Positions 19,546 through 59,418 of a stretch of DNA of 62,449 nucleotides are shown here, one piece after another. Source of the DNA: Methanobacteriota archaeon (lineage in GTDB: Archaea > JAADCQ01 > Methanopyri > Methanopyrales > Methanopyraceae); assembly GCA_027064305.1 (NCBI GenBank), contig JAMOPY010000046.1, positions 1 through 62,449 of the forward strand, in the 5' to 3' direction. The position numbers were made by a program, and so were the translations under genes. The notes below the pieces were generated by a model that was given only the letters and a program-made list of their open reading frames with translations, had not been told where the DNA came from and made no database searches. Numbering within the stretch: position 1 is the stretch's first letter; each line of letters begins with the position of its first letter.

Positions 19546-20309
19546 GGGTGGGCGTGATCGGGGGCACCGGGTTCCGGCCCGGGCACCCCGAGGGCACCCG
19601 CACCGTCAACACCCCGTACGGCCGCGTCCGGGTGGAGATCACCCGACTGGGGGACCGCAGGGTCTACTTCATCAACAGGCACGGGCGGGGCCACGAGCGT
19701 CCGCCGCACCGGATCGAGTACCGGGCGATCGTCTGGGCGCTCAGGGAGATGGGCGTGGAGCGGATCCTGGCCACCAACTCGGTGGGCGTGATCAACGCGG
19801 ACGAGTACGAGCCCGGGGACCTGGTCCTGCCGGTCGACTTCCTGGACTTCACGAAGAGCCGCCCCACCACCTTCTACGACGACAAGGTGGTGCACGTGGA
19901 CGTGACCGAGCCCTACTGCCCGGAGCTTCGGAGGGCGCTCCGGGAGGCGGCCGAGGAGCTCGGGCTCGAGCTCAAGGAGGGGGCGGTGTACGTGGCCACC
20001 GAGGGGCCGAGGTTCGAGACGCCGGCCGAGATCCGCGCCTTCGCCCGGCTCGGTGGCGACGTCGTGGGCATGACCGGGTTCCCGGAGGTCGTGCTCGCCC
20101 GGGAGCTCGAGCTGTGCTACGCGACCGTGTGCATCTGCACCAACTACGCGGCCGGGGTGGACGAGCGGCGACGGACGGTGGACGAGGTGTTCGAGCTGGT
20201 CGAGCGGCTGCGGCCCCAGGTGGTCCGGTTGATCGAAGCCGCGATCGATCGGATCCCGGAGGAGCGGAACTGCCCGTGCGCCCGGGCGCTGGAGGGCGCC
20301 GAGGTATGA
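19542..20309 (+). CDS. Methylthioadenosine/methylthioinosine phosphorylase family
   Basis: 255 aa from ATG 19542 (ATGA overlap with cmk). IGGTGF at the N-terminus, the phosphate/substrate segments FINRHGRGHERPPHRIEYRA and TNSVGVIN, and TEGPRFETPAEIRAFARLGGDVVGMTGFPEVVLARE are hallmark motifs of the MTAP/PNP family II. It phosphorolytically cleaves a purine nucleoside; in methanogens a methylthioinosine-specific form is known, so the base specificity is uncertain. Confidence 0.9.
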   Translation: MRVGVIGGTGFRPGHPEGTRTVNTPYGRVRVEITRLGDRRVYFINRHGRGHERPPHRIEYRAIVWALREMGVERILATNSVGVINADEYEPGDLVLPVDFLDFTKSRPTTFYDDKVVHVDVTEPYCPELRRALREAAEELGLELKEGAVYVATEGPRFETPAEIRAFARLGGDVVGMTGFPEVVLARELELCYATVCICTNYAAGVDERRRTVDEVFELVERLRPQVVRLIEAAIDRIPEERNCPCARALEGAEV

Positions 20310-20575
20310 GCGATCGGCCGGAGGAGCGGCTGAGGTCGCTGCGGCTGATCCCGGACGATTACACGGTCCGTCCGCTGGCGCTCCGGTACCTGAAGAGGCT
20401 GGAGGATGATCACCCCGAGCTTCTGGAGGACGTCGTGCGTGAGGCGCTCGAGATCGCCCGGGAGGAGGGCCACTACGAGGTTCGGGCCGAGACGCTGAGG
20501 AAGGCGTACGCGAGGGTGAAGGGGATCAGCCTGGAGGAGGCGCGCCGGGAGTTCTTCCCGAAAGCGCTTAAATGA
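20306..20575 (+). CDS. Small all-helical protein of unknown function
   Basis: 89 aa from ATG 20306, overlapping the preceding stop (ATGA). It is predicted to be fully helical and charged: [38 protein letters not shown] recognise no family with certainty; it faintly resembles the small helical modules at the C-terminus of dark-operative reductases. No cysteines. Its stop region doubles as the TATA box of the RNA gene that follows. Confidence 0.6.
   Translation: MSDRPEERLRSLRLIPDDYTVRPLALRYLKRLEDDHPELLEDVVREALEIAREEGHYEVRAETLRKAYARVKGISLEEARREFFPKALK
20567..20573 (+). promoter_or_regulatory. TATA box of the H/ACA-like RNA
   Basis: CTTAAAT overlaps the end of the small helical gene. Its centre lies about 26 nt before base 20596, where the first RNA stem starts two bases later. 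This is the same arrangement as at tRNA-Gly. Confidence 0.5.
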
Positions 20576-20593
20576 GTCGACCCGACCCCGGAA

Positions 20594-20728
20594 GCGGCCG
20601 GGCGCGGCGGCCCGCCGGAGAACGATGACGGCGGGCGGAACCCGCCCGGTACACGCAGCCGGCGGGGCGGAGGCGGCCGGTCGCGTCGGCCGACCGTGAC
20701 CGCCCCGTCCTTTGGGCCGGGCACAGCC
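20594..20728 (+). ncRNA. Candidate double-hairpin H/ACA guide RNA
   Basis: The only long gap here (20576-20738) folds into two GC-rich hairpins, each followed by an ACA. Hairpin 1: lower stem CCGGGCG (20598-20604)/CGCCCGG (20643-20649), internal loop CGGCGG/CGGAACC, upper stem CCCGCCG (20611-20617)/CGGCGGG (20629-20635), apical loop GAGAACGATGA with GA and ATGA elements suited to a K-loop bound by L7Ae. ACA is at 20651-20653, 15 nt after the upper stem, the known H/ACA spacing. Hairpin 2: CGGGGCGG (20663-20670)/CCGCCCCG (20700-20707), again with ACA (20723-20725) 15 nt later, but with no clear two-sided pocket. A TATA box stands at the right distance. The target is not identified. Confidence 0.6.
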
Positions 20729-20738
20729 GCGTCACCCC

Positions 20739-21101
20739 TCAGAACGTGAGTAGGTCGGCCGCCCCCTCCAGCTCCTTGCGGCACTCATCGCACGCGATCC
20801 GCCCCGTCACGCTGACCACGTCGTACCGGGACGGTGCCAGCCGGGCGTAGTACACGTTCGGCTTCTTCCCCAGGATCCCGCGCGCGAGCGACGACAGCAG
20901 CTCCCGGAGCTTGGACTCGAACACCTCCACGTCCTCCCGGACCAGGTTCCGAGTCTCCAGCGAGACCCCCACGCAGCCGCACGGCATCGCGAACACCGTC
21001 AGCTGCAGCACGCCCACGGGCTTCCCCAGCAAGTTCGACAGGCGCGACTCGGCCCGCCGCCGGGCCTCAGTCAGCCTCGACGGTTGCAGGCCGGCCGGCA
21101 T
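20739..21101 (-). CDS. Small cysteine-containing protein of unknown function at the end of the hcg operon
   Basis: 120 aa from ATG 21101, overlapping the U32-like gene by 35 bp. It has two cysteine pairs, MPCGCVGV (about 40-43) and ACDECRKEL (about 103-106), spaced to bind zinc or an Fe-S cluster, around a helical middle and the phrase NVYYARLAPSRYDVVSVTG. I do not recognise the family. Its position as last gene of the operon that starts with hcgC makes a role in FeGP cofactor assembly possible but unproven. Confidence 0.55.
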   Translation of the reverse strand: MPAGLQPSRLTEARRRAESRLSNLLGKPVGVLQLTVFAMPCGCVGVSLETRNLVREDVEVFESKLRELLSSLARGILGKKPNVYYARLAPSRYDVVSVTGRIACDECRKELEGAADLLTF

Positions 21102-58254: not shown

Positions 58255-59418
58255 CTACACGTTCACGTTGATCCACACGGGCTCGTCCGTGCCCTTACCC
58301 TCCTCCGCGACCTTGATCGCCCGGAGCACGTCCTCGGGTCGGACGTCCCGGCCCCCGAGCCCGGCGATCGTGGAGGAGACCTCCACGTCCGGGGCGTGCG
58401 CCTTCACGTCGGTCCATAGGGGCGGCATGGCCCCGTACGAGTGCGTGCGGTCGATGGTGACGACGCCCTCCCGGTCCTGGATGATCTCGGCGATCCGGTC
58501 GCCGGGGAAGGGTCGGTAGGCCTTGACGCGGACGAGCCCGACGTCGGGGCGCTCCTCGTCGATCACGTGCTTGACGGTGCCGCAGACGGAGCCCATCGCG
58601 ATCACGATGTAGTCCGCGTCCTCGGTGTTGTACTCCTCCACCAGCCCGTCCCCGTACGAGCGGCCGAACGCGTCCGAGAATTCCCGGTTGACCTCCCCGA
58701 TAACCTCGCGGGCGCGCTCCATCGCCTCGTGCTGCATCTTCTTGAACTCCATGTAGCAGTCCGGGCCGCCGACGGGGCCGATCGTCATGGGCTCCTCCGG
58801 GTCGAGCCGGCAGTGCACGGGCTCGAACTCGCCGACGAACTCGCGCACCCGCTCCTCGTCGGGGATAGCGACGGGTTCGAGCGTGTGTGAGAGGGTGAAC
58901 CCGTCGAAGCAGACCATCACGGGGAGGAGCACGTCCTCGTGCTCGGCGATGCGGTAGGCCTGGATGATCGTGTCGAGGATCTCCTGGTTGGACTCGCAGT
59001 ATAGCTGGATCCAGCAGGTGTCTCGCTGGGCCACGGTGTCGGAGTGGTCGCACCAGATGTTGATAGGGGCGGAGAGGGCGCGGTTGGCCACGGCCATGAC
59101 GATGGGGAGCCTCAGCCCGGAGGCGATGAAGAGCACCTCGTGCATCAGCGCCAGCCCCTGGGAGGCGGTGGCCGTGAATACGCGTACGCCGGTCGCGGAG
59201 GCGCCGACGACGGCGCTGATGGCGCTGTGCTCGGACTCGACGTGGATGAACTCCGCGTCCAGCTCGCCGTTGGCGATGAACTCGGAGAGGTACTCGACGA
59301 TGGGGGTCTGCGGGGTGATGGGGTACGCGGCGATGACGTCGACGTCGACCAGGCGCACCGCCTCCGCCGCCGCGTAGTTCCCGTTGATCACGCGCACGTC
59401 GGGCCCGAGCTCGGTCAA
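58255..59418 (-). CDS. porA: Pyruvate:ferredoxin oxidoreductase, alpha subunit
   Basis: 387 aa from TTG 59418, with GAGGGG about 9 nt upstream. [71 protein letters not shown] and [19 protein letters not shown]-like segments match PorA. The second domain contains [11 protein letters not shown] and [12 protein letters not shown]. Longer in-frame readings upstream overlap porD and are not accepted. Confidence 0.96.

Follow-up and report, generated by a model that had tools for sequence, protein, structure and literature searches.

Genomic Context and Fold of the Locus

The window analysed is a stretch of 62,449 nucleotides from a Methanobacteriota archaeon of the Methanopyraceae (contig JAMOPY010000046.1). 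A gap extends from position 20576 to 20738, between the stop of a plus-strand gene (20575) and the end of a convergent minus-strand gene (20739), and the features recognised in this region are collected in Table 1.

Table 1. Features at the two-hairpin RNA locus of the window.
Feature	Position	Strand	Remarks
Small protein gene 5' of the RNA, outside it	20306–20575	+	C-terminus EFFPKALK conserved in three relatives
Two-hairpin H/ACA-type sRNA gene (probable), family A copy of this genome	20597–20725	+	Ends placed from the structure; block conserved in five Methanopyrus genomes
5' strand of the canonical lower stem	20597–20604	+	8 bp with 20643–20650, this genome only
Hairpin 1 GA stem	20610–20636	+	8 bp (20610–20617 with 20629–20636) plus two G.A pairs, 10 layers
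Apical K-loop of hairpin 1, expected L7Ae site	20618–20628	+	GA...UGA, GAGAACGATGA; from the sequence
Hairpin 1 3' guide, GGAACC	20637–20642	+	Position 14 nt upstream of ACA
First ACA box	20651–20653	+	Invariant across all orthologues and paralogues
Proposed 5' guide of hairpin 2, AGCC	20657–20660	+	Predicted to pair with GGCU downstream of 23S U2491
Hairpin 2	20662–20708	+	9-bp stem (20662–20670 with 20700–20708) and apical K-turn-like region
Hairpin 2 3' guide, CCUUUGGGC	20709–20717	+	Predicted 9 bp with GCCCAAAGG, immediately 5' of 23S U2491
Second ACA box	20723–20725	+	Invariant in the four copies aligned
Convergent gene 3' of the RNA, outside it	20739–21101	-	

The gap contains two strong GC-rich hairpins, whose sequence and geometry agree with the description given in the first-pass annotation, and its fold has a calculated energy of -99.6 kcal/mol (z = -1.9 versus shuffles), a stability that by itself constitutes modest evidence, the DNA of this region being so rich in GC. 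The same annotation had placed an ACA 15 nt past the upper stem in both hairpins. This is true when the distance is counted from a stem of 7 bp in hairpin 1 and 8 bp in hairpin 2, and becomes 14 nt in both once the closing pair is taken into account (G20610-C20636 in hairpin 1, a G.U in hairpin 2). An RNA from the opposite strand was also considered and discarded; it folds too, but the K-loop and the ACA boxes make sense on the plus strand only.

A TATA box had been proposed at the end of the preceding gene as the signal starting transcription. This proposal was not confirmed: the element, CTTAAATG, falls within the final codons of that gene and reads CTTAAG in the relatives that keep the gene. 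The same bases encode the conserved C-terminus of the protein (KALK), which accounts for the conservation of the site and leaves the promoter claim weak.

Structural Features of the Two Hairpins

Archaeal box H/ACA RNAs carry the ACA 14-16 nt past the closing pair of the upper stem, below a K-loop or K-turn. The GA and UGA ends of the apical loop of hairpin 1 provide the two sheared G.A pairs of a K-loop, and this loop lies on top of a stem of about ten layers as expected for the H/ACA class, hairpin 2 being only K-turn-like in the same comparison; by inspection, it has no textbook K-turn. With a GA stem of 10 and the ACA at 14, the geometry of hairpin 1 fits the productive "10/14" rule, which combines a GA stem of ten layers with 14-15 nt to the ACA and according to which the 3' guide duplex is decisive, while the other side sometimes consists of one pair (Toffano-Nioche et al., PMC4652768). 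A descriptor combining the stem, the GA...TGA loop and an ACA at 14-15 nt returned one match in the whole window, searched on both strands, against a mean of 0.08 matches in dinucleotide shuffles.

Conservation in Methanopyrus and Identification of a Paralogous Family

Methanopyrus is a heat-loving methane producer, and the element was found conserved in all five Methanopyrus genomes examined (G000-G004), where the RNA block stands out clearly from much less conserved flanks. Of the 49 positions of hairpin 1, 33 do not vary between the copies, as counted from the invariant columns. The GA...GAUGA signature of the K-loop is kept in most copies, 2 nt being missing in G001, and the distance from the closing pair to the ACA ranges from 13 to 16 nt in the relatives. 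The 3' guide of hairpin 1 is identical in G000, G004 and G001 and altered in G002 and G003. The closing pair of hairpin 2 is a G.U in three copies and an A-U in G003. G000, G004, G001 and G002 have the same upstream gene, while G003 shares neither neighbour, which indicates that the RNA is independent of its usual neighbours.

Two copies deserve separate mention. The one in G001 (G001:C1:19794-19840, L003, reverse strand) lacks an AC in the K-loop/stem of hairpin 1 in comparison with all other family A copies, either a sequencing error or a real loss. In the family A copy of G002, hairpin 2 is degraded or replaced and the guide of hairpin 1 reads AAACCC instead of GGAACCC.

A covariance model built from hairpin 1 retrieved a paralogous two-hairpin RNA, named family B, in G000, G001, G002 and G004. 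Family B shows the GA stem, the K-loop and the double ACA as in family A, with different guide sequences. A wider model returned nine copies, consisting of four of family A, four of family B and one in G003 with B-like guides. The resemblance of its guides to family B led us to reject the G003 copy as a relocated orthologue; it may rather represent a third locus or an ancestral form. The genes neighbouring family B are conserved (G000:C23:81097-81147, L020; G004, L019; G001, L021; G002, L022), and a T-rich stretch occurs past the last ACA in L019 and L020.

When orthologues and paralogues were compared, six of the eight pairs of the GA stem of hairpin 1 were invariant, the closing pair varying among G-C, A-U and G-U and the top pair between G-C and U.G. 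Both variable pairs thus show compensatory or wobble exchanges. The shuffle control for this pairing (41/500) is suggestive only, given the few sequences.

The model was also searched against 144 non-Methanopyrus archaea (149 genomes in total) and gave nothing significant outside the genus, so that, in this sample, the family seems confined to Methanopyrus. One weak match (E 0.011 for one genome) was taken as chance.

Probable Assignment to the H/ACA Class

Rfam returned nothing at gathering score at the locus. At a relaxed E-value, weak sub-threshold matches appeared, including the H/ACA families PyrR208 and HgcG; hairpin 2 scored 15.7 bits against PyrR208, whose gathering score is 64. The protein partners Cbf5 and L7Ae are encoded, above cut-off, in all five Methanopyrus genomes, these being the two partners checked.

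The independent RNA gene of H/ACA type postulated at the outset was supported by its presence in five of five genomes, the different neighbours in G003, the paralogues in four genomes and the occurrence of Cbf5 and L7Ae. We therefore consider it highly probable that the locus encodes a guide sRNA of H/ACA type built of two hairpins in tandem, which we assign to family A of Methanopyrus. Structure, spacing, conservation, paralogues and two of the four proteins constitute the basis of this reading, from which we infer transcription, protein binding and target modification.

On this basis, L7Ae would bind the apical K-loop or K-turn of each hairpin and Cbf5-Nop10-Gar1 would associate with the stem and ACA box of each. 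The segment that separates stem and ACA would pair with a target RNA, most likely ribosomal RNA, just 5' of a uridine; this U, at 14 nt from the ACA, would be placed in the active site of Cbf5 and converted into pseudouridine.

Lower Stem and Guide Pocket

The locus had originally been drawn as a canonical H/ACA RNA, with a lower stem closing a two-sided pocket; in archaeal box H/ACA sRNAs this stem measures 5-9 bp and lies below an internal loop. Both elements are clear in the window copy, whose lower stem of 8 bp is equalled by 2% of shuffled flanks, but they are not clear in its relatives: the lower stem has at most 6 bp in orthologues and paralogues, which is the chance level versus shuffled flanks. 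For this reason the RNA was filed as H/ACA-type, possibly H/ACA-like, and the pocket probably works open in most relatives, as it does in the Pyrobaculum H/ACA-like RNAs. The 10/14 geometry without a lower stem suits most copies, the window copy itself being able to form one. By analogy, an H/ACA-type RNA whose lower stem is reduced or open, similar to those of Pyrobaculum, thus appears the better general description. The 5' GGCG is invariant among the five copies, and in family A it may instead pair with a conserved 3' CGCC.

Search for Target RNAs

The target predicted from the pocket of hairpin 1, GGTTCCG-UN-CCGCCG, was absent from the 85 loci searched, which included 16S, 23S and 30 tRNAs. 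When both sides of the pocket were considered, no rRNA site paired better than shuffles, and the thirty tRNAs of G001 gave short matches only; overall, hairpin 1 showed no significant target in rRNA or tRNA. The 23S site GGGUUCC[U1510]C pairs with 7 bp on one side and 0 on the other; since 483 of 1000 shuffles equal it, it is not claimed as a target. The guides of paralogue B were likewise compared with rRNA, with no significant site. Hairpin 1 thus has the best scaffold, with no convincing target.

A better candidate emerged for hairpin 2. In the 23S rRNA of G001 (a 1,694,969-bp genome) its guides can flank U2491 with 9 + 4 bp, and 10 of 1,000 shuffled rRNA sets do as well. The 5' duplex at this site has a calculated energy of -15.2 kcal/mol, compared with a published cut-off of -6. 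The guide of G001 itself pairs more weakly (7 + 4 bp, equalled by 62 of 1000 shuffles), and since several hairpins were tested the match is to be regarded as good but not conclusive. By alignment, U2491 of G001 corresponds to U2291 of E. coli, after a shift by 3 correcting the offset of the E. coli copy used, and the site does not differ among the three 23S sequences compared. E. coli U2291 is not among the modified positions that we met in the literature. An alternative target of hairpin 2 near the A-loop (U2747) gave a weaker match and was set aside. By complementarity, 23S U2491 (E. coli U2291) is the most likely predicted target of hairpin 2.

Evaluation of Alternative Interpretations

We tentatively propose, as a possibility still short of an even chance, that Methanopyrus has its own family of tandem H/ACA-like RNAs with open pockets, one of which might modify the 23S site that corresponds to E. 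coli U2291. The canonical H/ACA sRNA as first drawn, with a lower stem of 7-8 bp and the pocket CGGCGG/CGGAACC guiding modification of GGTTCCG-UN-CCGCCG, seems unlikely to us: the window copy can form the 8-bp lower stem and the 5' guide strand GGCG is invariant in five copies, but the orthologues lose the stem, the predicted target was not found in any rRNA or tRNA locus searched, and in rRNA two-sided pairing never exceeds that of shuffles. An H/ACA-type RNP RNA serving mainly some purpose other than pseudouridylation, such as rRNA folding or processing or the docking of L7Ae and Cbf5, would keep its scaffolds and let its guides drift. The almost invariant scaffold of hairpin 1, its guides differing in G002 and G003, and the failure to find it a target agree with such a role, and roles of this kind have been raised for orphan guides (PMC3608112). 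We nevertheless regard this explanation as doubtful, as hairpin 2 has a good two-sided match in 23S and the differing guides of the paralogues are consistent with guide diversification.

The locus might even contain no RNA gene, being simply GC-rich intergenic DNA or a 3' UTR or terminator common to both convergent genes. Convergent genes often end in hairpins, and the fold is just modestly better than shuffles, but the element is kept in a different gene context and has a paralogue elsewhere, its conservation is far above that of the flanks, and the K-loop and ACA spacing also speak against this reading. Such an explanation is very improbable in our judgement.

Comparison with Known H/ACA RNAs

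The tandem H/ACA-type RNA resembles the Pyrococcus-type archaeal box H/ACA sRNAs, including the multi-hairpin Pab40/HgcG and Pab35, in the 10-layer GA stem with K-loop or K-turn, in the ACA 14-15 nt past the closing pair, in the several hairpins each with an ACA and in the same encoded protein partners (Cbf5 and L7Ae checked). It departs from them in that the Methanopyrus family lacks an Rfam match at gathering score and a conserved lower stem. With the Pyrobaculum H/ACA-like sRNAs (sR203-sR210; Rfam PyrR208) it shares a GA stem near 10, the ACA at 14 and an absent or reduced lower stem, and hairpin 2 matches PyrR208 weakly, well under the gathering score; the Methanopyrus RNA differs in having two hairpins per RNA and in belonging to another archaeal lineage.

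RNA-Seq of Methanopyrus kandleri reported six H/ACA box sRNAs (PMC3695527), which have the genus and the RNA class in common with the present locus, and the G001 orthologue may be among them. In the 1,694,969-bp genome the orthologues lie at about 19,721-19,840 and 766,886-766,935, both on the minus strand. With families A and B, a hyperthermophile lineage that is poorly annotated would gain two paralogous H/ACA-type RNAs specific to the clade, together with a concrete, testable 23S target. Moreover, the data suggest that guides with a reduced lower stem also occur outside Pyrobaculum, a point relevant to what Cbf5 requires of its guide.

Additional Observations

Two tRNA annotations in the window were discordant. 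At positions 194-299 Rfam scores a tRNA that ARAGORN does not list, while at 59186-59277 ARAGORN lists a tRNA-Ile that is not reported by Rfam; introns may cause this disagreement. Finally, the Methanopyrus genomes have widely separated 16S and 23S genes, with a distance of about 67 kb in G001 (L008, L011).
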